Assembly (NCBI GenBank): GCA_002070715.1
Contig: MWDV01000094.1
Span: 1-64,000, forward strand
Direction: 5' to 3'
Origin: Verrucomicrobia bacterium ADurb.Bin118
GTDB lineage: Bacteria; Verrucomicrobiota; Verrucomicrobiia; Limisphaerales; MWDV01
Length of the DNA stretch: 64,000 bases
How positions within the stretch are numbered: the stretch's first letter is position 1; each line of letters begins with the position of its first letter. Under the pieces are notes generated by a model that searched no databases, had not been told where the DNA came from, and saw only the letters and a program-made list of their open reading frames with translations. Positions 14,592-27,294 of the stretch are shown here, piece after piece. The position numbers and the translations under genes were made by a program.

Positions 14592-15434
14592 TCAAGGGGC
14601 CGATGCTTTTATAAGCGCGTGCTGTTGCTCGAGAAACTCCAGCCACTCGGCCATGCCGGCACCGGTCTTGGCCGAAACCTCAAACAACCGGGCGTGATGG
14701 CTGATATGCCGCAGGTGGGTTAACGCCGTGTCCCGGTCAAATCCCGCCGCCGCCGCCAGATCGCTCTTGGTCACCAACACCACGTTCGCCGAGTGAAAGA
14801 TGGGCGGATACTTCAACGGTTTATCCTCCCCCTCAGTTACGGACAGCAACACGACGCGCACGGCCTCGCCCAAATCATAATCCGCGGGGCAAACCAGGTT
14901 GCCGACGTTTTCAATAATGAGCACGTCAAGGTTGTCCAGGTCCAGTTGAGGCGCCGCCCGGGCAATCATTTCCGCTTCGAGATGGCAAACGGTGCCCGTG
15001 GTGATTTGCACCACCGGCACACCGGCGTCCCGCAGGCGCGCGGCGTCGTTATCGGTCGCCAGATCGCCGACGATGACGCCCAAACGCAGTCGTCCCCGCA
15101 ACCCGATGGCCGTCTGCTGAATCAAGGTGGTTTTGCCGGACCCGGGCGACGATAGCACGTTCAAGACGAGCAGTTTTTTGGCTTGAAAAAATCCCCGGTT
15201 GCGCTCGGCCAGCCGTTCGTTTTTCTCCAACAACGAGCGCTGGATGGTCACGGTCTGGGCTTCCGATCCAGGCGCCTGGTCACTCCCTGAGGAGTGGGCC
15301 GCGCCGGTTGAGGCCGGCGCGTGTTGGTGATGATGAGGGCCGCCGCTGTGGGGAGCATGATGATGTTCCGCTCCGGGAATATGTTCGTGCAGCATTTCGT
15401 CAACGCCCAGTCCGCATCCGCATTCTTTACACAT
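14592..15434 (-). CDS. hypB: Hydrogenase/urease nickel incorporation GTPase HypB
   Basis: A 280-residue protein starting MCKECGCG, the high-affinity CxxCGC nickel site of HypB. A histidine-rich stretch follows at about residues 17-40. The SIMIBI GTPase core has a P-loop, [13 protein letters not shown], then [12 protein letters not shown] and a nickel/zinc Cys-His region ([11 protein letters not shown]). VTKSDL provides base specificity. HypB delivers nickel to [NiFe] hydrogenase or urease together with HypA. A longer upstream frame is out of place because MCKECGC is the conserved N-terminus. Its ATG lies one base after the hypA stop, so the two are translated together. No hydrogenase or urease subunit is in the window. 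Confidence 0.95.
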
Positions 15435-15435
15435 G

Positions 15436-15777
15436 TTATTCGATCTCGATTGAAATGATTTCCAGTTCACGTCCGGCGCGCAGTTCGTGACTCCACACGC
15501 CACACCGGGGACATTCCGGCAATGGTCGGTCCCGCTCAAATGTAGCCGCACACGGGGCGCACCACCAGGTAGCCGGAATGGCTTCGATGGCGAGCGTTGC
15601 CCCTTCCGCCAGCGTTCCCTCAATAACAGCCTCGAAGGCAAATTGCAAAGCCTCGGGCACCGCACCGCTCATCGCCCCCACCCGCAGCCGCATCTGACAG
15701 ACGCGGCGGGCGCCCTGCGTCTGGGCCGTTTCCACAGCGAGTCGCACGGCTTCCGTCATGATGCTGACTTCATGCAT
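15436..15777 (-). CDS. hypA: Hydrogenase maturation nickel metallochaperone HypA
   Basis: A 113-residue protein with the invariant N-terminal MHE (nickel ligand His2) and a zinc ribbon formed by CAPC and CPRC about 12 residues apart (residues 73-90). HypA inserts nickel into the hydrogenase large subunit with HypB. I placed the start at MHEVSIM because the amino-terminal His2 is functionally required; the upstream in-frame extension would destroy it. It sits first in a two-gene hypA-hypB operon. The rest of the hyp set (C, D, E, F) is not nearby. Confidence 0.94.
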
Positions 15778-16050
15778 CGCGGGCAGAACCATAACCCAGG
15801 ATGCCAGTCGGCAGAAGCAATATCCGCAGCGTTTTCTGCCGGCGAGCATCTCCCGACAGCGTCCTGGTGCAAAACCCGAAGACACCGGCTCAACCACTGG
15901 TAAACCTCAGGATCGCCTGGACACATCAAGCTCGCACCTGAATTGAACAGCCGGGACGAGATTACGAAACGCAAAATCCCGCAAGACTTCACAATCGGTC
16001 CAAGCTTGGCTTCTATCATCCGACCGGCCACAATCCCGCGCGTTATCGTA

Positions 16051-17179: not shown

Positions 17180-18514
17180 TCAATTCAACACACAACCCCG
17201 GCGCAGATATGTCGGCGTGTCGAGGTCCTCGCCCCGATGGATATTGGGTTCGGTTTTATCAAAGCGTCCGCGGGAAATGACGTCGAGGGGCAAGGTGCCC
17301 TGCCGGAGGCGCGTGGTCGTTTTGCGGGGCCGACTCGCGGAATCAACCGGGCGCGCCTGCATCCGTTCCCGCGGCTCGGACGGCCGAATGGTTGGCGCAG
17401 GCAACGGGTGAGCGCGCCCTCTTGAAACCTGGGGGAGGAGAGGCGGTTCCGCTCCCGCCTCGGCCGATGAACGGTCGGCTGTGCGGCCCGCGACTTCATC
17501 CGCCACCGTTTCCTCTGCTGGAGGGACCTCCACACTCCGGGGAGTGGCAATGAGCGTCACTTGCAACCGTTCATTGAACGCCATGTCCACGGTTGCGCCC
17601 ATCAATACCTGGGCGGTTTCGCATTGCCGGGTGATTTGTTCCATGACCCGGTTAACCTCCGCCAAGGCGAGGTCCAATCCGCCGTGGAGACTGACGACGA
17701 CGGCTTCAGCCGTGGCGAGCGCCTGCCCCCCGTCCAGCAGAGGGTGGGCGAGGATTCGGTCCACAACTTCGCGTGCGCGATTCGGCCCATGCGCCTCGGC
17801 GGCGGCCAGGACACTTTCAACATGGCGTCCCTGCAACAGCGCGCACAATTCCGGCAACTGAATCGGAATCAGCCCCTGGTGCGTGAGCAACCGCAGCAGT
17901 CCGCACAATCCTTCGGTCAGGCGCGCGTTGGCCGTTTTGAACGTGTCGAGCAGGGCGGTGCGCTCATCAATCAACTGCAAAATCTTCTGATTGGGCAGGC
18001 AGATGAGGCCGTCCACCTCGGCGCGCAGTCGTTCCAAACCCGCTTGCGCCTGGTGTTGCCGCCGACTGCCCTCGTAATGGAACGGCAGCACCGCGCAGGC
18101 CAATACCAACGCCCCGGCCTCGCGCGCAATCCGCGCGACCACGGGACTGATGCCCGTGCCGGTGACACCTCCCAAACCGGTGAGAATCACCACCAGCTTC
18201 GCGTCCCGGCAGGCGGCAGCCAGGCAGGCCGAATGTTCCGCCAACGCGGGCTCGCGTTCGGAATCGTTGCCGGCGTCCAAACTCCGCCAGCGCGATTTTT
18301 CAAGAGGCAACTTGAGCGGCGCCGCCGAAGTTGCCAGGGACGCGGGATCCGTGTTGACGGCGATGAAGGATACCTGATCCGCGTCGTTATCCACGAGTGT
18401 GTTCAAGAGATTGACACCGGCGTTACCAACGCCGAAAACACGAATCGGTGTGGTGAGTTCCGGCGCGGAGGGCGCCGCGGGCGAAGCGGTCGGTTCGGAA
18501 GTAAGCGTATTCAT
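17180..18514 (-). CDS. ftsZ: Divergent cell division protein FtsZ
   Basis: A 444-residue tubulin-family protein at the end of the dcw operon, 12 bp after ftsA. The N-terminal strand IRVFGVGNAGVNLL and AVNTDP match FtsZ. The tubulin signature is degenerate: GLGGVTGTG at residues 113-121 in place of GGGTGTG. The T7 synergy loop, normally G-L-I-N-x-D-F-A-D, reads GLIPIQLPEL at 214-223, so both acidic residues needed for GTP hydrolysis at the subunit interface are replaced by Gln and Glu. A long linker follows. The far C-terminus, DLDTPTYLRRG, still looks like the FtsA/ZipA-binding peptide. It should form the division ring with FtsA, but its GTPase activity is doubtful. Divergent FtsZ has been reported for Verrucomicrobia. 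Confidence 0.88.
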   Translation of the reverse strand: MNTLTSEPTASPAAPSAPELTTPIRVFGVGNAGVNLLNTLVDNDADQVSFIAVNTDPASLATSAAPLKLPLEKSRWRSLDAGNDSEREPALAEHSACLAAACRDAKLVVILTGLGGVTGTGISPVVARIAREAGALVLACAVLPFHYEGSRRQHQAQAGLERLRAEVDGLICLPNQKILQLIDERTALLDTFKTANARLTEGLCGLLRLLTHQGLIPIQLPELCALLQGRHVESVLAAAEAHGPNRAREVVDRILAHPLLDGGQALATAEAVVVSLHGGLDLALAEVNRVMEQITRQCETAQVLMGATVDMAFNERLQVTLIATPRSVEVPPAEETVADEVAGRTADRSSAEAGAEPPLLPQVSRGRAHPLPAPTIRPSEPRERMQARPVDSASRPRKTTTRLRQGTLPLDVISRGRFDKTEPNIHRGEDLDTPTYLRRGCVLN

Positions 18515-18526
18515 GCGATAAGGAAA

Positions 18527-19750
18527 TCAACGACGGCCCAACAGGTCCTGAAAGGGATGGGTTAATCTAAAGGCAAATGTTTTTTTACGCCGTTTCGTCG
18601 GACGCCGGTTGGCCCCAAAACGAACCAAGCCAATGGCCGCGGCAAACTCCGGCTGGCTGAGGGAGGATTTGTCACCGCTTAGACAATCGCTGCGCCCGAT
18701 AAAAACCGGCAAACCGAAAACATCTTCCGCCAGCTCGGCTACGCGCGGAATGCGGGAACACCCGCCGCAAAGATACACCCCGGCGCGGAGATAATCGTAC
18801 AACCCGGCCTCCTCGACATCGCGCCGGACCAGATCGAAGGTTTCCTCGAGCCGAAACCACATAATGCGGCGCAGATTTTCCAGGCTGAAAGTTTTGAGCG
18901 GCAGACCGAAATCATTGACCACATCCACCGTCTGACCTTTGATGTTCTCCTCCACCAAGGCGCCGCCGTACTCGATCTTGAGTTGTTCCGCGCGGCCGAG
19001 CGGGACTTTCAGGCCGATGGCCAGGTCGTTGCTCAGGTGGTCGCCCCCCACCGCGAGCACGCCGGAATGTTTGACCGAGCCGCCCGCGTACACCACGACA
19101 TCCGTGGTGCCTCCGCCCATGTCAATCACCAGCGCGCCGTCTTCCTTCGCCTCCCGAGGAAGGACTGCGAGGGAAGAGGCCAGTCCGGTAAAGGCAATAT
19201 CTTCGACTTTCAGCCGGAGTTTATTGACGGCCCCGATGGTGTTTTGCAGGCGGTTGAGATTCCCGTGAACCACGTGCATGTCCGCTTCGAGACGACTCCC
19301 CAACAGGCCCACGGGATTCGTATAACCGTCATGCCCATCCACGAGAAAACCCTGGCGTATGGAGTGCACGACATGGTTCTGCACCGGCAGGTTGATGGCC
19401 TTGGCGTTCTTGATCACATCCTGCAGGTCTTCCTCGGTAATCTCGCGATTGTCGGAAACGATGGGATGGATGCCGCGGTTGTTGAAGCCGCGAATATGAC
19501 TGCCGGTAACGCCCAAAAAAACCGTGCGAATTTCCACGTTGGCCATCTGTTCGGCCTCAACCAGGGCATGACGGATGTCCTCCTCCGTGCGCGCCGTATC
19601 CACGATCTCCCCTTTCCGCACGCCGCGCGAGGCGCATTGCCCGATCCCGATGATGTTGGGCACCCCGGAATCCCCGACCTCGCCGACGACCGCGCAGATC
19701 TTGGAGGTGCCGACTTCTAATCCGACAAAGATGGCTGAGGAATCAAACAT
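18527..19750 (-). CDS. ftsA: Cell division protein FtsA
   Basis: An actin-like ATPase of 407 residues that anchors FtsZ to the membrane. It starts with the phosphate-1 motif VGLEVGTSKICAVVGE. Phosphate-2 is seen in VIDMGGGTTDVVVY and the adenosine motif in VYLCGGCSRIP. The C-terminal amphipathic helix is present as FRLTHPFQDLLGRR, the membrane-targeting element. Length and motif order are typical. It overlaps the end of ftsQ by 8 bp and precedes ftsZ by 12 bp, which indicates co-translation. Confidence 0.96.
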   Translation of the reverse strand: MFDSSAIFVGLEVGTSKICAVVGEVGDSGVPNIIGIGQCASRGVRKGEIVDTARTEEDIRHALVEAEQMANVEIRTVFLGVTGSHIRGFNNRGIHPIVSDNREITEEDLQDVIKNAKAINLPVQNHVVHSIRQGFLVDGHDGYTNPVGLLGSRLEADMHVVHGNLNRLQNTIGAVNKLRLKVEDIAFTGLASSLAVLPREAKEDGALVIDMGGGTTDVVVYAGGSVKHSGVLAVGGDHLSNDLAIGLKVPLGRAEQLKIEYGGALVEENIKGQTVDVVNDFGLPLKTFSLENLRRIMWFRLEETFDLVRRDVEEAGLYDYLRAGVYLCGGCSRIPRVAELAEDVFGLPVFIGRSDCLSGDKSSLSQPEFAAAIGLVRFGANRRPTKRRKKTFAFRLTHPFQDLLGRR

Positions 19751-20705
19751 GGCGTTTTCGGGAGCGTGGAGGGTTGACCGGTTTGGGCGGGGCGGGCGGC
19801 AGGGCGCCGGCCTCCAGCCAGCGCGCGGGAATGTTGTTGGTTACCGCCAAATCCAGACTAGCCAACACCCGTTGCTGGCGGGCGCCGGCGTCGTGGATCT
19901 CGCGCCAACGCAACAACTGCCGTTCCAAATCCTGCCGACCAAAAGTGACCTCGCTCCCCTGCTCCGTTGTCAGCAGCAATACGTCCGGCGCGCTCACATC
20001 CACCCGGCGCAAATCCACCAAGCCATACATGGGCGACCGCTCAAAGGCGTCCAGCAGCCGCAACGCGACCTGGACCGCCGGTGATTCCACCCGGCGCCCG
20101 GGTTGCAGTTCGTGCGGGTTCATGCCGGAGATCACCGGAAGCATTTCTTCCGCGGGCAACAACGGCTGCGAACGCAACCGCGGATCGAGGACCGGCATCA
20201 CGTGCCCCGCGGCATCCAAATGATACACCACGATGTCCACCCCACCGCCGCGGCGCGGCCGGGGCAGGTTGACTTGGGCCACGGGCTCCCGTTCCGTCAC
20301 CCGCACGCGCAAAGTATTGGGCAAAACCCGTTCGACCGAGGCCGCCGCGATAAACGGCGCGTATTCGAGATTGCGCTTTACCTCCGCCAGGTCCAAGGCG
20401 AACAAGTTGACCCCCGACGTCACGCCCGTCCACCGGCGCAATTGGTCGGGGGTGATCACGCCGTCGGTTTGCACGTCCATCGTTTGCAGGGCAAACGCGG
20501 AGTTCTCGTACAACAACCGATTCAGCCCCCAATCCCCCAACCGATACAGCACATAGACACCGAAGATCACCCCCAGAGCCATGCCGAGGCTCAACGTCAC
20601 CAGCCGCAAGCGGGCCGCACGCACCAGGTTGGACCGCAATTGCACGTGCAACAGCTGCTTCCGGCTTAACCTCCGATTTCGTTGTCTGCGTCTAAACCAC
20701 ATCAT
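19743..20705 (-). CDS. ftsQ: Cell division protein FtsQ/DivIB
   Basis: A 320-residue bitopic protein. A basic N-terminal cytoplasmic tail (WFRRRQRNRRLSRK) precedes one membrane helix (LVTLSLGMALGVIFGVYVLY). A POTRA-like region follows (VQTDGVITPDQLRRWTG, then GVNLFALDL and VERVLPNTLRVRVTEREPVA), the signature of FtsQ. FtsQ links early and late division proteins and recruits FtsL/FtsB. I chose the ATG pair at 20705/20702, immediately before the basic tail; an extension to 20771 would run into ddl. It lies between ddl and ftsA, the usual place. Confidence 0.92.
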   Translation of the reverse strand: MMWFRRRQRNRRLSRKQLLHVQLRSNLVRAARLRLVTLSLGMALGVIFGVYVLYRLGDWGLNRLLYENSAFALQTMDVQTDGVITPDQLRRWTGVTSGVNLFALDLAEVKRNLEYAPFIAAASVERVLPNTLRVRVTEREPVAQVNLPRPRRGGGVDIVVYHLDAAGHVMPVLDPRLRSQPLLPAEEMLPVISGMNPHELQPGRRVESPAVQVALRLLDAFERSPMYGLVDLRRVDVSAPDVLLLTTEQGSEVTFGRQDLERQLLRWREIHDAGARQQRVLASLDLAVTNNIPARWLEAGALPPAPPKPVNPPRSRKRHV

Positions 20706-20715
20706 TGAAAATGTT

Positions 20716-21630
20716 CTAAGGCGCCCGCCGGGCCAGCGCCAAATCCACCATGCGCTGACACAAGTCGCCAAACGTCAATCCCATCGCCTGCGCGCCCATG
20801 GGCAACAAACTCGTCTCGGTCATGCCGGGCAACGTGTTGATTTCGAGCACCACCGGCGACCCGTCGGACTGGATGATGACATCCACGCGCGCGTAATCCC
20901 GCCCGCCAATCGCCCGGAACGCGTCCAGCGCCGCCACGCGCGCCCGCTCCGTCGTGGCTTCGTCGAATGGCGCGGGGCACAGGTATTCAGTCGTGCCGTT
21001 TGAATACTTGGTCTGGTAATCGTAAATGCCCGTTTTGGGACGCACTTCGACGAGGGGCAGGGTCTGCTCCCCCAGAATCCCCACCGTGCATTCCCGGCCC
21101 GTGATTTTCTCCTCGACCAACACCCGCGCATCGTGCTGCAAGGCTTTGACCAAGGCCGCGCCCCAGTCGCTGACGCGCTCCACAAAATGCAGGCCGACAC
21201 TGGACCCCTGGCACACCGGCTTCAAGACGACCGGCGGCCGCCAGCCCTCCGGCCAGGGGGCGGTCGCCGACTCCACCACCAGAAACCGCGCAGTGGGCAC
21301 TCCCGCCGCGACACACCGTTGTTTGGTCAGGGCCTTATCAAACCCAATCCGGCTGGCTTCCGGCCCGCAGCCGGTATAGAGGACGCCCTGTTTTTCCAAC
21401 TCCGCCTGCACGCGGCCATCCTCGCCATACGTCCCGTGCAGCGCCAGAAAGACAACATCTGTCCCGGCCGGCACCGTCCATCCGGGCGACTGCGGATCAA
21501 GCTCCAACACTTCGTGCCCCCGCGCCCGCAAAGCCGCCGCCACTGACGCGCCCGAACGTAACGACACTTCACGTTCCGCGGACGGGCCGCCCAACATCAC
21601 CGTGATTTTTAACTGGGTCGTCTCTGCCAT
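20716..21630 (-). CDS. ddl: D-alanine--D-alanine ligase
   Basis: A 304-residue ATP-grasp enzyme. The N-terminal KITVMLGGPSAEREVSLRSG motif and DVVFLALHGTYGEDGRVQ are typical. ATP-grasp residues are seen in VVLKPVCQGSSVGL and the Mg-binding VLEINTLPGMTETSLLP near the C-terminus. It joins two D-alanines to give the terminal dipeptide of the peptidoglycan stem, the substrate of MurF. Position in the dcw cluster, between murB and ftsQ, is classical. Confidence 0.96.
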   Translation of the reverse strand: MAETTQLKITVMLGGPSAEREVSLRSGASVAAALRARGHEVLELDPQSPGWTVPAGTDVVFLALHGTYGEDGRVQAELEKQGVLYTGCGPEASRIGFDKALTKQRCVAAGVPTARFLVVESATAPWPEGWRPPVVLKPVCQGSSVGLHFVERVSDWGAALVKALQHDARVLVEEKITGRECTVGILGEQTLPLVEVRPKTGIYDYQTKYSNGTTEYLCPAPFDEATTERARVAALDAFRAIGGRDYARVDVIIQSDGSPVVLEINTLPGMTETSLLPMGAQAMGLTFGDLCQRMVDLALARRAP

Positions 21631-21643
21631 AACCCCTCAATGC

Positions 21644-22591
21644 CTAATCGCCGACAACCTGCACTTCCAATTCCAGTTCAACGCCGCGCTCGGCGCGCAC
21701 CCGCTGCCGGATCAATTCAATCAAAGCCAACACCTCCCGCGCGGTGGCGCCGCCGTCATTGACAATAAAATTGGCGTGCTCGCGACTAACCCGCGCTCCG
21801 CCCACCCGCAGGTCTTTCAATCCCAACTCGTCAATCAACCGACCCGCCGACTGCGTTCCCGGATTTTTGAAAATACACCCGGCACTGGGCGCGGCCGGCT
21901 GGGAACGCCAACGCCGCTGGTTGAAAGCCAGCATCCGCGCTTCAATGGCCTTTCGCTCCGCCGGGTCGCCCACCAACACCGCGCTTAACGCCACGCGTTC
22001 CCGGAAGAACGGGCAACTGCGATATTCCGCGCCGACCTCCGCCCCCCGACGCTCGGCCACTTGTCCGGTGAACTCCATGAACCGCACCCTTTCGACCACG
22101 TCAAACAAGGCGCTGCCCGAAGCCCCGGCGTTCATCCTCAACGCCCCGCCCACGCTCCCGGGAATGCCTTCCAGAAATTCCAGGTTGCCGAGTCCGTGAC
22201 GTTTGGCCGCTTGTGCCACCGCCTTGAGTTTTGCCCCGGCGCCACAATGCAGCCCGCATTCCCGCACCTCGACTTGCGTGAACTCCGCGTGCGTCAGACA
22301 GACCACCACGCCGCGAAACCCCGCGTCTTGGACCAACAGGTTCGAGCCGCGTCCGACGATCAACACCGGCACGCGTTGCGCCTTACACAACCGCAGCACC
22401 GCAGCCAGGTCGGCTTCCGTAGCCGGTTCGATCAACAAATCCGCCGGCCCGCCCACCCGCAGGGTCGTGCGCTTTGCCAGCGGTTCCTGCCGGCGCCACC
22501 GTGTCTCCGGCGAGAGGGATCGCGTGAGATCCGCCAGCCAATCGGGGTCGCCGGGCGCGTGGACAATCCGGTTGGGCAGGGCAGACGTCAT
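21644..22591 (-). CDS. murB: UDP-N-acetylenolpyruvoylglucosamine reductase MurB
   Basis: A 315-residue FAD enzyme that reduces UDP-GlcNAc-enolpyruvate to UDP-MurNAc with NADPH. FAD-binding motifs are TTLRVGGPADL, LIVGRGSNLLV and IPGSVGGALRMNAGA. The catalytic region reads SAGCIFKNP, with Cys where many MurB have the proton-donating Ser; Cys variants are, as far as I recall, known. The ATG at 22591 overlaps the murG stop by 4 bp (ATGA), which fixes the start against a longer upstream frame. murC, which usually precedes murB, is missing. Confidence 0.95.
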   Translation of the reverse strand: MTSALPNRIVHAPGDPDWLADLTRSLSPETRWRRQEPLAKRTTLRVGGPADLLIEPATEADLAAVLRLCKAQRVPVLIVGRGSNLLVQDAGFRGVVVCLTHAEFTQVEVRECGLHCGAGAKLKAVAQAAKRHGLGNLEFLEGIPGSVGGALRMNAGASGSALFDVVERVRFMEFTGQVAERRGAEVGAEYRSCPFFRERVALSAVLVGDPAERKAIEARMLAFNQRRWRSQPAAPSAGCIFKNPGTQSAGRLIDELGLKDLRVGGARVSREHANFIVNDGGATAREVLALIELIRQRVRAERGVELELEVQVVGD

Positions 22592-23808
22592 GCGCTCAAA
22601 ACCGGATGAATTTCCGGAACATTGTCGGTGGGCGATAAAGGCAACGACGAGTTGACAGGCTGACGTTTGGCAATCCCGCGCAGCAATGCCTCGGCCACAT
22701 CGGCGGCCGCGCGGGGCGACTGCCAGCGCTCCTGGGCCGCGCGCATTTGGGCGGCCGCGGCTGGATTGTTTACCAAGCCACAAACGGCGCCCGCCAGCGA
22801 TTCCGGCGTGGCCCATGCCTGTTCCAGCAAACAAGCCGCCCCATCCGCCGCGAGCTGACGCGCGTTGTGCCATTGATGATTATCCGCCGCGGTCGGCAAC
22901 GGCACCAACACCGCCGGCACCCGCAGGGTCGTCACTTCTGCCAGGAACGAGGCGCCGGCACGGCTGATACATACCGAGGCCGCGCCCAAAGCCACATCCA
23001 TCGCGTCAAAGAAAGGCAGGACGATCGCCGTCAACCGCGCAGCCGCGTAAGCTGCCTTCACGGTCTCCACATCGTGTGCGCCGGTCAGATGGATCCATTG
23101 CATTTCGGGCGCCCGTTGGGCCAACACCGGCAAAGCCGCCCGCACGGCGTCATTCAAACCGCGCGCGCCTTGGCTGCCCCCCACCACCAGCGCCACGGGA
23201 CGATCCGGATGCAATCCCAAAGTCAACCGCCGGGTCGTCTGCGACTGCGGCGCGCGTCCGGCCGCCACGAACACGGACCGTACCGGCGTGCCCGTCACCA
23301 AGGCGCGCGGGCCGCGCAAGCGATGGCCCGCAGAGGGAAAGCCGACGAAGGATTGATCCACCATGCGGGACAATAATCGGTTGGCTCGCCCGGGAATCGC
23401 ATTGGCTTCATGCAGAAAGGTCGTCGCGCCGCCCCGCCGGGCGGCCAGCAGCGGCGCCACACTCGTAAATCCTCCCATACCCAACGCCGCGTGGGGCGTC
23501 GCGCCAGCTTTCAGCCCTGCAGTTTCGCTGCGATACCAGGCGGCCCGCAACTCGCGATATGCGCGCACGGAATCACGGAAAAAAGCCAGCCGGGAACCGC
23601 GTTGAAATGCCACCGCCGGAAGCGTGACCACGGTGAGGTCGTCAATCCCCTGCACGGCTTGCTGATCTACGGCCTTGGGAGAAACCAGCAGCGTGACGGC
23701 GCAATCCCGCCGGCGCAGTTCCTCGGCCACCGCCAGGCCGGGAAAGAGATGCCCGCCCGTGCCGCCACACGCAATCGCGACAGTCAGTGGGGAGCGGGTC
23801 CGGGGCAT
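22588..23808 (-). CDS. murG: UDP-GlcNAc:undecaprenyl-PP-MurNAc-pentapeptide GlcNAc transferase MurG
   Basis: A 406-residue GT-B glycosyltransferase that makes lipid II from lipid I at the inner membrane surface. The N-terminal G-loop AIACGGTGGHLFPGLAVAEEL is diagnostic. The second G-loop region is VVGGSQGARGLND. The donor-binding C-terminal patch (ISRAGASFLAEVT, then AADNHQWHNA) is present. Slightly longer than the 355-residue E. coli protein because of a C-terminal tail. It lies 5 bp after ftsW and overlaps murB by 4 bp. Confidence 0.95.
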   Translation of the reverse strand: MPRTRSPLTVAIACGGTGGHLFPGLAVAEELRRRDCAVTLLVSPKAVDQQAVQGIDDLTVVTLPAVAFQRGSRLAFFRDSVRAYRELRAAWYRSETAGLKAGATPHAALGMGGFTSVAPLLAARRGGATTFLHEANAIPGRANRLLSRMVDQSFVGFPSAGHRLRGPRALVTGTPVRSVFVAAGRAPQSQTTRRLTLGLHPDRPVALVVGGSQGARGLNDAVRAALPVLAQRAPEMQWIHLTGAHDVETVKAAYAAARLTAIVLPFFDAMDVALGAASVCISRAGASFLAEVTTLRVPAVLVPLPTAADNHQWHNARQLAADGAACLLEQAWATPESLAGAVCGLVNNPAAAAQMRAAQERWQSPRAAADVAEALLRGIAKRQPVNSSLPLSPTDNVPEIHPVLSA

Positions 23809-23813
23809 GTGAT

Positions 23814-24923
23814 TTAAGGCGCGATGGGGGATTCAAATGGATTGGCCGGAGGACGAATCGGCACCTGCGCGTGGCGCGCGATGCTCAACATCAAACCGAC
23901 AGCGGCCAGCATGACCACCAAGCTGGAGCCGCCGTAACTGATGAAAGGCAACGGCAATCCCTTGTTCGGCAAGGCACTGGTCACGACCCCAAGGTTGATG
24001 AAGGCTTGCAAGCCAATCAAAAAGGTGATGCCCGAACCCAGCAGCAACCCGAAAGGTTCCCGGGCATTGAGGGAGATATAGAGGCCGCACAACACGATGG
24101 CGACAAAGGCCACCACCACCAGCATCGTGGCGACCAGACCAAGTTCCTCGCCGATCACCGAGAAGATGAAATCGGTGTGGTGTTCGGGAATGAACCCAAG
24201 TTTTTGACGCCCGTCCCCCAAGCCCAGGCCGAATATCCCCCCCGATCCCAGCGCGAGCATTCCTTGATACGCCTGGTAACCAACTCCGTCCTTGGAGTTA
24301 TCTAAATCCTGCCAACTGAGAATGCGATTCCGGCGCATATCGTCGAACCAAAGAAAGATCCCCACTCCCACCGCCACCACCAGCGAGAGAGGCAAAACGA
24401 AGCGCCAGCGCACGCCGGCCACCAGCAATATTCCCCCGGCCAGCGCCGCCAATAAGATGGTGGTCCCAACATCCGGTTCGCGAAATATGAGAGCCAGCAC
24501 CACGGCCAGACAAAACCCAGGAATCAAAATGCCGTAACGGAACGTGCCGATGTGCCGTTGGTAACGCTCGCCGTACCAGGCCAGGGCGAGGATCAACGCC
24601 AATTTGCAGAATTCCGACGGTTGAAAACTCATGCCGCCGAAACTGAACCAGCGCCGGGCATTGCCCCGCACCACGCCAAAGACCAAGACCGCCGCAAGCA
24701 GAATCACGGCCACCACAAACGCGGGCAGGGCCAACGCGCGCAATCGCGTGTAATCCAGACTGGCCACCAGCACGCAAACCAGCAGCCCCGGGGCGCACCA
24801 CGTCAATTGCCGGACCAGGTCGTGGGCGCCCGTTTGGGCCATGCTCGAGCTGTACAGCATCACCAACCCCAGCGCCAACAACGCCCCCACGCAGGTCACC
24901 AAGATCGTGACAGCCAGCTTCAT
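23814..24923 (-). CDS. ftsW: SEDS peptidoglycan polymerase FtsW
   Basis: A 369-residue SEDS protein with about ten membrane helices. The region GGMSFQPSEFCKLALILALAWY carries the family's conserved Gln-Pro-Ser-Glu patch. A large loop bears GLGLGDGRQKLGFIPEHHTDFIFSVIGEE, including the H-T-D-F-I-F motif, and the C-terminal LPFISYGGSS is the classical signature. FtsW polymerises septal glycan strands together with the transpeptidase FtsI. The 95-bp gap to the LysM gene is the largest inside this half of the operon. Confidence 0.96.
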   Translation of the reverse strand: MKLAVTILVTCVGALLALGLVMLYSSSMAQTGAHDLVRQLTWCAPGLLVCVLVASLDYTRLRALALPAFVVAVILLAAVLVFGVVRGNARRWFSFGGMSFQPSEFCKLALILALAWYGERYQRHIGTFRYGILIPGFCLAVVLALIFREPDVGTTILLAALAGGILLVAGVRWRFVLPLSLVVAVGVGIFLWFDDMRRNRILSWQDLDNSKDGVGYQAYQGMLALGSGGIFGLGLGDGRQKLGFIPEHHTDFIFSVIGEELGLVATMLVVVAFVAIVLCGLYISLNAREPFGLLLGSGITFLIGLQAFINLGVVTSALPNKGLPLPFISYGGSSLVVMLAAVGLMLSIARHAQVPIRPPANPFESPIAP

Positions 24924-25018
24924 CGCAATCAGTTCATCAGCCGTTGAGCATGAGGGTTTGTGGCCAGTTCACCAGGACGCCGCCGTTGAGATCTTCGGGT
25001 CGTCCGCTTCACTTCTTC

Positions 25019-25756
25019 TCAAGGCAGAGGGGCCGGTGCCGGTTCTGGAATCGGCGCCGGCGCCGGGGCCTTGCCGGGAATCTTTAGTTTGTCCCCCACG
25101 AGGATGCGGTCGGTGACCAGATGATTGGCCGATCGCAAGGCCTTGACGGTCACACCATATTTGTTGGCGATCTTGGTCAGATTATCACCCGATTTGACCA
25201 CATGAATCTGCTCACCGGCGGCCGCATCAGGGATCCCGCCGGGCGCGCCAACCGCCGGGCCCGTCGGCGCGGGAATATTTAGGCGCTGGCCAATCCGCAG
25301 CCGCGTCGGCTCCACGCCGGGATTCGCATCGGCAATGGCCTGCGCCGAAACGCCGTAGTGCTTACCCAGGCTGTAAAAGGAATCACCGGATACCACCACA
25401 TGCTCGTTGACAGGAGGCGCGGGCGGTACGGGCTCCGGCGGCGGCACCACCACCGGTGCGACGGGCGCCGGCGGCGCCGGCTCGCCGTAAGGAGGCGGGG
25501 GCAAATCCGGAGCCGGCGCGACAGGCGCGGGTTCCACCACCGGCGTGCTGCTGGTGTCAAACAACGGCACGAGCGGCTCAGGCGACGGCGGCAGCGGCGC
25601 GGGTTCGCGCTTGCATCCCTGCGCGATGAGCGCAACCAGAATGGCGAGGACATGGACCGCCAGCACGCAGAAGAAGGCGGTCTTCACGCGCGAGCGGCTT
25701 TGATTTTTTTGCTCCAACAAGGAGCTTTGGGGGACCAATGGATTATCGTTGTTCAT
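25019..25756 (-). CDS. Membrane-anchored protein with two LysM domains
   Basis: A 245-residue protein with a short cytoplasmic N-terminus, one membrane helix (AFFCVLAVHVLAILVALIA), and a Pro/Ala-rich linker. Two LysM domains follow at about 118-162 (VVSGDSFYSLGKHYGV) and 181-227 (VKSGDNLTKIANKYGV). LysM binds the GlcNAc backbone of peptidoglycan, so it should tether the inner membrane to the wall, perhaps at the septum. A cysteine follows the membrane helix (QGCKREP), so a lipoprotein is possible. Its ATG overlaps the murD stop by 4 bp, which supports co-translation within the dcw operon. Confidence 0.85.
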   Translation of the reverse strand: MNNDNPLVPQSSLLEQKNQSRSRVKTAFFCVLAVHVLAILVALIAQGCKREPAPLPPSPEPLVPLFDTSSTPVVEPAPVAPAPDLPPPPYGEPAPPAPVAPVVVPPPEPVPPAPPVNEHVVVSGDSFYSLGKHYGVSAQAIADANPGVEPTRLRIGQRLNIPAPTGPAVGAPGGIPDAAAGEQIHVVKSGDNLTKIANKYGVTVKALRSANHLVTDRILVGDKLKIPGKAPAPAPIPEPAPAPLP

Positions 25757-27294
25757 GGCAGTTGGCGCGGCGGGCGCCGGGGGTTTTTGTGGGGTGGTTT
25801 CTTCGGTTTGGTTGCCCTGGAGTTTTCCCTCACCAAACGCCGGGGCAAAGAGCGCCGACGGGCCGCCGTTGGGGCGGCTGCCGGCCCTGAAAAATCACGG
25901 GCGGGGAGCGGGTCGCCCGGGACCGCTCCGCCCAACGATTGCACTGCGTTGCAAAAGAACTCGCCGCGTTGTTGGTAGTTTCGAAATTGATCGAAGCTCG
26001 AACAAGCGGGTGACAGCAAAACCACGTCTCCGGGCGTGGCGTGTTTTACCGCTTCGGTTACTGCTTCTAACAGCGAACCCACCACGGTGCAAGGAGTAAA
26101 AAGTCCCCACGCCGCGCGGATTTTGGGCGCGGCTTCGCCCAGCAAAAAAGCGTGTTTGACGCGCTGGTTCAACACCGGGCCGATCTCGTGAAAATCCAGT
26201 CCCTTGTCCTGCCCGCCGGCGATCAGCCAGACATTGGGCTGTCCCCCGGCGCCGGGCCGCACGGATACCAGCGCCTTCTGGGTGGCGTCCACGTTGGTGG
26301 CCTTGGAATCGTTGATGAACTGCACGCCGTTCCGTTCCGCCACCACTTGAAACCGGTGCGCGCCGGGCAGGCAGGATTTCAAGGAGTTCACCATGCTTTC
26401 CAACGGCACGCGCAACACCCGGCCCACCGCCAGCGCCGCCATCAGATTCTCGGCGTTATGCACGCCCCGCAACTGGCACTGGTCCATGTTGAGCAACGGC
26501 CCGGTCCAATCCGGCAACTGACTGACCAACAAGCCGCGATCCAGATAGAGGTCCGCTTGGGAATCGGTCGCGGAAAAAGTAATGATCTTGGCGGGCAGCG
26601 GGATGCCGAGCGCCTGAAGTTGCGCCCGGGCTTCACTCTGCACAATGGCCCAGTCAAACGCCTGTTGCTGGCGGAACACCCGCGCCGCGCATCGGATGAA
26701 ATCCTCCCGGCTCGCGTACCGATTTAAATGATCCGGCGCCAGATTCAACAGCACCGCCACCGCCGGCCGGAAATACTGGACCGTCTCCAGGTGAAACACG
26801 CCCAGTTGCAAGATGAGGTAATCGAGCTCCCGCGTGTGGTCCGCCACGTCGCAAACCGGGCGCGCGCCGTGCCCGGCCCGCATCACCCGGCGCTGGGCAT
26901 CCTGCAGCATTTGCTCCACCAGCTCCGCAGTGGTGCCTTTGCCGTTGGTGCCGGTGATGACCATGGTCAAACATTGAAACTGTTGGGCGGCCAGTTCCAA
27001 CACGCCAGTCACCGGCACGCCCCGCGCGACCAATTGCCGGACGAAATCATGCTGTTGCATGACCGCTGGGCTGAGCACCGCCAAATCAAACCGGGTGGCG
27101 GGCAGCGCGCGCGCGGCCAGCCGCGTGTCCACGCCCCGGGCGCGCAAGGCCGCCGCCGTCGCGCGCAAGGCGGGTGTGTCCGCCTCGTCCAGCGCCGTCA
27201 CCCGCGCACCGTGATGAACCAGCAACTCACACGCGGCGCGGCCCCGGTTGCCCAGGCCGAGCACGAGGATTTGTTGATGGGTCCAATGCGCCAT
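25753..27294 (-). CDS. murD: UDP-N-acetylmuramoyl-L-alanine--D-glutamate ligase MurD (divergent)
   Basis: A 513-residue Mur ligase with a Rossmann N-domain (LVLGLGNRGRAACELL), a central ATPase domain and a C-domain (HRFQVVAERNGVQFINDSKATN, WLIAGGQDKGLDF). It adds D-Glu to UDP-MurNAc-L-Ala. Several usually fixed positions differ: the P-loop is GTNGKGTT at 115-122, the Mg-binding E of the ELSSFQLE motif is Q163 in QLGVFHLE, and the carbamylated Lys falls on an Ala (203 or 204). PDHLNRY is retained. A basic, Pro-rich tail of about 50 residues extends the C-terminus. Placement between mraY and the LysM gene suits MurD. Confidence 0.88.
   Translation of the reverse strand: MAHWTHQQILVLGLGNRGRAACELLVHHGARVTALDEADTPALRATAAALRARGVDTRLAARALPATRFDLAVLSPAVMQQHDFVRQLVARGVPVTGVLELAAQQFQCLTMVITGTNGKGTTAELVEQMLQDAQRRVMRAGHGARPVCDVADHTRELDYLILQLGVFHLETVQYFRPAVAVLLNLAPDHLNRYASREDFIRCAARVFRQQQAFDWAIVQSEARAQLQALGIPLPAKIITFSATDSQADLYLDRGLLVSQLPDWTGPLLNMDQCQLRGVHNAENLMAALAVGRVLRVPLESMVNSLKSCLPGAHRFQVVAERNGVQFINDSKATNVDATQKALVSVRPGAGGQPNVWLIAGGQDKGLDFHEIGPVLNQRVKHAFLLGEAAPKIRAAWGLFTPCTVVGSLLEAVTEAVKHATPGDVVLLSPACSSFDQFRNYQQRGEFFCNAVQSLGGAVPGDPLPARDFSGPAAAPTAARRRSLPRRLVRENSRATKPKKPPHKNPRRPPRQLP

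Follow-up and report, generated by a model that had tools for sequence, protein, structure and literature searches.

Hydrolysis of guanosine triphosphate (GTP) by FtsZ drives treadmilling, and the need of division for it is still debated from one laboratory mutant to the next. Here we describe an ftsZ gene on a stretch of 64,000 nucleotides, hereafter the window (positions 1 to 64,000 of the forward strand of contig MWDV01000094.1, assembly GCA_002070715.1, Verrucomicrobia bacterium ADurb.Bin118), whose product, as judged by alignment, has lost two out of three key residues in the T7 catalytic loop and retained one of its two acids.

The chemistry of this loop is best described for Staphylococcus aureus FtsZ, where D210 (209 in the Escherichia coli numbering used below) swings and positions the catalytic water, D213 (212) helps to hold this water, and N208 (207) together with Q48 (47) hold a potassium ion (PMC8936486). 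GTPase-poor variants are also on record: E. coli FtsZ D212A has 7% of activity left (PMC8142252), E. coli D212G forms static rings (PMC7320174), and S. aureus T111A hardly treadmills while its constriction rate is normal (PMC10994846). Like the window protein as interpreted below, these FtsZs are poor in GTPase activity yet form rings or support constriction; each of them, however, carries one change made in the laboratory to a canonical protein, whereas the window presents a natural, inherited loss of two T7 residues. A natural FtsZ with low GTPase activity has been reported in Ca. Thiosymbion oneisti, but there the low activity has another origin (PMC8953583). In alpha-tubulin the glutamate E254 is catalytic (PMC7018511). 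Its position is presumed to be the equivalent of 212; unlike the window FtsZ, alpha-tubulin works in heterodimers and retains the Asn and Asp that precede this acid.

Within the same phylum, Verrucomicrobium spinosum also has a divergent FtsZ, which, unlike that of the window, was described with all FtsZ signature motifs (PMC1845146, PMC12283558); its gene is essential (PMC12283558). Among bacteria, it is in Verrucomicrobia that FtsZ diverges most (PMC9871819); divergent FtsZ in this group had also been mentioned in the first-pass annotation of the window.

T7 loop, nucleotide pocket and C-terminal tail

The gene (17180..18514, minus strand) encodes 444 amino acids plus stop and exceeds the Pfam cut-offs for PF00091 Tubulin (100.6 bits) and PF12327 FtsZ_C (62 bits). 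The TIGR00065 ftsZ model was covered nearly in whole at 216.7 bits versus a curated cut-off of 295.2, and the protein is therefore a divergent FtsZ. With canonical FtsZs of E. coli and S. aureus (TIGR00065) it shares the fold, the place after ftsA, most of the T1-T6 pocket and the FtsA-binding C-terminal peptide; it differs in the T7 loop (PxQxxE in place of NxDxxD), in the change G107V and in a much longer conserved tail of 40 amino acids, besides the score below cut-off.

The T7 loop reads GLIPIQLPEL (residues 214-223; 17846..17875, minus strand) and departs from the synergy motif GxxNxDxxD: N207 is replaced by P217, D209 by Q219 and D212 by E222. Open reading frame, strand, G-box, T7 loop and the DLDTPTYLRRG tail had all been read correctly in the first-pass annotation, which went on to call the loop free of catalytic acids. 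This holds for D209, lost along with N207, but fails for position 212, where an acid persists. No gap fell within T7 when the protein was aligned to FtsZs of solved structure and to that of E. coli, and an AlphaFold model built with a 60-sequence alignment placed the loop between helices H7 (188-211) and H8 (220-227); misalignment of T7 was rejected on these grounds. The predicted fold is that of FtsZ, all 50 listed PDB matches of the model being FtsZ, with predicted local distance difference test (pLDDT) values of ~85-97 over most of the core and mostly <50 in residues 343-410.

Elsewhere in the active site, the T4 or tubulin-signature loop GLGGVTGTG (residues 113-121; 18152..18178, minus strand) deviates by one substitution from GGGTG[ST]G, reading GGVTGTG with V at G107 and T108 retained. 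The T1 loop GVGNAGVN (residues 28-35; 18410..18433, minus strand) has N at G20 and mostly keeps the rest of its motif, and Q47 is replaced by A. When 20 nucleotide-binding and catalytic positions were scored, any acid at 212 counting as retained, 16 were kept and Q47, G107, N207 and D209 were lost; the less strict positions G20, D166 and D187 were also altered, while the pocket residues G105, G106, T108, E138, R142 and N165 were intact. The damage thus falls mostly on the T7 and potassium contact of the upper subunit, and the pocket of the lower subunit is largely intact.

The C-terminal part shows a different pattern. A disordered linker (residues 326-404; 17303..17539, minus strand), with mean column identity of ~0.30, is followed by the conserved tail QGTLPLDVISRGRFDKTEPNIHRGEDLDTPTYLRRGCVLN (residues 405-444; 17183..17302, minus strand), which includes the FtsA-binding-type peptide GEDLDTPTYLRRG (residues 428-440; 17195..17233, minus strand). 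No block of FtsZ is better conserved than this tail in the 58 families of the order that were compared: mean column identity reached 0.74 over residues 401-444 and 0.85 over the binding peptide, versus 0.61 for the core. The peptide, around DLDTPTYLRRG, resembles E. coli DYLDIPAFLRK, and its binding to FtsA is predicted from this similarity. The ftsA gene itself (407 amino acids; 18527..19750, minus strand) lies directly upstream, where it had been noticed before, and its product is ordinary, with Pfam FtsA and SHS2_FTSA matches, 345 bits against TIGR01174 and an amphipathic-looking C-terminus. The earlier proposal that anchoring is kept is therefore supported as a prediction.

It should be added that most FtsZs of the order carry this 40-residue tail, with the consensus QLPLEIVSKGRFEKSEPTIHxGEDLDVPTYIRRGVxLN, far exceeding the usual FtsA-binding peptide. 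Its GRFEKSEPT part may be a binding site for another partner.

Distribution of the altered loop and decay in a related family

For comparison, FtsZ proteins were gathered by sequence search at three taxonomic levels, order (160 genomes), class (34) and phylum (36), which gave 230 proteins. On a tree computed with the active-site columns removed, the window FtsZ was placed in a clade of Limisphaerales (Verrucomicrobia subdivision 3) with 47 representatives and a Shimodaira-Hasegawa-like approximate likelihood ratio test (SH-aLRT) support of 95. None of the 59 clade sequences had N207 or D209 (His at 209 in 48), all 59 had D or E at 212, T108 was kept in 19% (Ala in 42), and E138 and R142 were kept in 100%. 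Outside the clade, members of the order kept N207 in 63%, D209 in 74% and D212 in 74%; a family f3 protein, for instance, has the canonical loop INVDFAD. The substitute loop is itself conserved over many families, with the consensus LIEIHFADL. A separate scan of named genomes (Limisphaerales or subdivision 3 metagenome-assembled genomes) gave a similar picture for 59 relatives, with some canonical sequences mixed in. By these alignments, the T7 loss is an inherited, clade-wide state and part of a phylum-wide erosion, and not the lone oddity of a single divergent protein that had initially been supposed.

The pattern is reversed in class relatives: those sampled mostly keep N207 and D209, and D212 is usually replaced by T, A or S (LINLDFATL). 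Many sister-order FtsZs (L059-L074) are of this LINLDFATL type. In genus g60, of the same class but outside the order (L087, L202; G078, G084), N207 and D209 are lost and D212 is kept (LLQVGLDDL, LLRVGLDDL); several genomes of this genus are closed, at ~3 Mb, which suggests cultured isolates.

The two acids were seldom lost together. Among the 230 proteins, 102 had no acid at 209, 63 had none at 212 and only four had neither, versus ~28 expected under independence; two of these four carried Asp at 211. An independent-pairs sign test found too few supported pairs, and a likelihood model was used instead: Pagel's model of dependent evolution was strongly preferred (likelihood ratio 29.4, 4 degrees of freedom, p 6.6e-6), also with the most decayed sequences added (likelihood ratio 28.0). 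Taken at face value, this either/or loss would mean that most of these proteins still require one T7 acid, a point in favour of residual catalysis.

A first survey of 58 order genomes, including that of the window, gave a match in 56, each with exactly one FtsZ, and exactly one was present in 40 of 40 near-complete genomes of the order. Apparent absence in G225, G221, G327, G030, G043 and G160 was not accepted as FtsZ loss, only low-scoring FtsA-like matches being found and an assembly gap being likely; G251 and G284 were likewise dismissed, as they hold a decayed FtsZ instead. A search for a second tubulin-family gene, suggested in the first-pass annotation, found none in the window's own assembly (80.65% complete), where the window gene is apparently the only one of its family; it may also be the sole FtsZ of its organism. 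In genus g42, the best-sampled of the clade, ratios of nonsynonymous to synonymous substitution (dN/dS) were 0.04-0.22 between close pairs, which indicates purifying selection in that genus.

Erosion went furthest in the sister family f21, also a member of the order, whose FtsZ proteins form a series from canonical to motif-free through the intermediates L267-L270. In genus g21 FtsZ is recognisable, with PF00091 scores of 95-116 bits. The score falls to 32-36 bits in genus g154, whose G-box is wrecked (GLGDDCSD is one example) and whose T7 loops take forms like LTKIKLSHL. In the two genomes of genus g162 the open reading frame after ftsA has no PF00091 match. The decayed frames (L240/L253 in G251, L245/L252 in G284) still follow ftsA and end in GRFAKCDPTYYDSINLDEPTYLRKHTVFN or a near variant. 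In hhalign comparisons with the tail removed, g154 matched canonical FtsZ at E 2e-36, and a match at E 1.6e-8 (probability 95.5) joined g162 to g154; g162 compared directly with canonical FtsZ gave no confident match (probability 12), so the homology of g162 rests on the chain of matches, the tail and the gene place. These sequences suggest that the order tolerates total loss of the GTPase motifs while tail and FtsA persist, and cell division in f21 may need much less GTP turnover than the textbook view holds.

A proposed slow GTPase and alternative readings

We favour, with moderate confidence, a working FtsZ in the window: a slow, one-acid GTPase held by FtsA that forms a scaffold still turning over, and not a dead protein. 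In its clade the ancestral N-x-D-x-x-D was rebuilt, N207 and D209 being given up and the acid at 212 retained. The window protein would still bind GTP and assemble at the membrane via FtsA, and its lone acid might, by analogy with alpha-tubulin E254, still polarise the attacking water. Loss of the swinging D209 and of the N207/Q47 potassium site would make hydrolysis and filament turnover far slower than in E. coli, and division would rely on an FtsA-anchored slow scaffold recruiting septal wall synthesis instead of on fast treadmilling. On the published T7 chemistry we expect the protein to bind GTP, to hydrolyse it slowly and only with E222 in place, and to form a slowly turning FtsA-bound ring; the altered positions are those of S. 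aureus N208, D210 and D213 (PMC8936486). The earlier view that GTP turnover is altered gains indirect support from this correspondence; its stronger version, that GTPase activity is lost, sits badly with the acid at 212 throughout the clade, with the either/or pattern and with the largely intact nucleotide-binding face.

Several points weigh against a slow but working enzyme. In S. aureus FtsZ any one of the changes N208L, D210N and D213N is enough to abolish assembly (PMC8936486), and by analogy the window protein might fail to assemble with GTP; in Bacillus subtilis, moreover, ring condensation requires treadmilling (PMC8079713). The presumed equivalence of E222 with alpha-tubulin E254 is read from the tubulin motif. 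In the either/or test the events were clustered, some losses were single old events and the tree was weak at depth; the deeper branches of the clade and several long-branch placements were weakly supported, and the most decayed proteins were under-represented in the set of 230. Finally, the apparent single copy is read from an incomplete assembly.

The same S. aureus mutants, together with the loss of N207, D209 and their partner Q47, would fit a protein without any hydrolysis that polymerises by nucleotide binding alone, or never, and serves only as an FtsA-bound platform, and the retention in f21 of an FtsZ with a tail, beside ftsA, but without any GTPase motif points in the same direction. 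We nevertheless regard this as rather unlikely for the window protein, since the universal acid at 212 in the clade and the either/or rule imply that acidity of T7 is still selected, and the pocket residues listed above are intact. The conservation of LIEIHFADL over many families, which looks rebuilt and not randomly decayed, could instead speak for a fully active GTPase with relocated catalysis, using E or Q at 207, H at 209 and D or E at 212, for instance with a His base in the sister proteins; but the window loop (PIQLPE) has no His and no acid at 207, G107 is V, and no precedent was found for full activity once D209 and N207 are gone, which makes this explanation improbable. A pseudogene, paralogue or assembly artefact with the working FtsZ elsewhere, for which the incompleteness of the metagenome-assembled genome might be invoked, is largely refuted already and in our view very improbable: the frame is full-length, at the usual place after ftsA and with a conserved tail, and a pseudogene or frameshift was rejected on this account; single copies in the near-complete relatives, the low dN/dS in g42 and T7 changes of like kind in dozens of independent assemblies tell against it as well.

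Beyond the slow GTPase preferred for the window, we put forward tentatively, as a possible rather than a probable scenario, that FtsZ of Limisphaerales is shifting from a GTP-driven filament motor to an FtsA-anchored scaffold. One acid would be enough in the window clade, and in f21 the GTPase would be gone with the tail still serving division; these would be sole natural FtsZs of cells that divide without fast treadmilling, and living intermediates on the way to a division without FtsZ as in Planctomycetes and Chlamydiae. In the library searched, we found no published description of the replaced T7 loop, of the either/or rule or of the f21 proteins without motifs, and nothing on FtsZ of Limisphaerales or on FtsZ having lost its GTPase motifs. 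Within one phylum an apparently sole FtsZ has repeatedly given up catalytic residues under an either/or acid rule, and in one family the GTPase motifs vanish while the anchor tail remains. This natural experiment offers natural proteins for testing the minimum FtsZ chemistry needed by a dividing cell, and it may point to a route by which sister phyla came to divide without FtsZ.

Division cluster around the gene

The surroundings of the window ftsZ are a normal division and cell-wall (dcw) cluster. Beyond ftsA it continues (19743..27294, minus strand) with a ftsQ-like open reading frame, ddl, murB, murG, ftsW, a gene for a LysM protein and murD, identified by NCBIfam matches; the ftsQ-like frame had no NCBIfam match at 1e-10 and is named by position only. 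murC is missing between murG and murB (21644-23808), and the assembly's top-scoring murC match, at 314 bits and under the cut-off, is on another contig, C63. The protein encoded between ftsW and murD is rich in proline, has a hydrophobic stretch at its N-terminal end and gives LysM-type matches (25019-25756, minus strand). Just past the end of the cluster lie hypA and hypB, for hydrogenase nickel maturation (14592-15897, minus strand).
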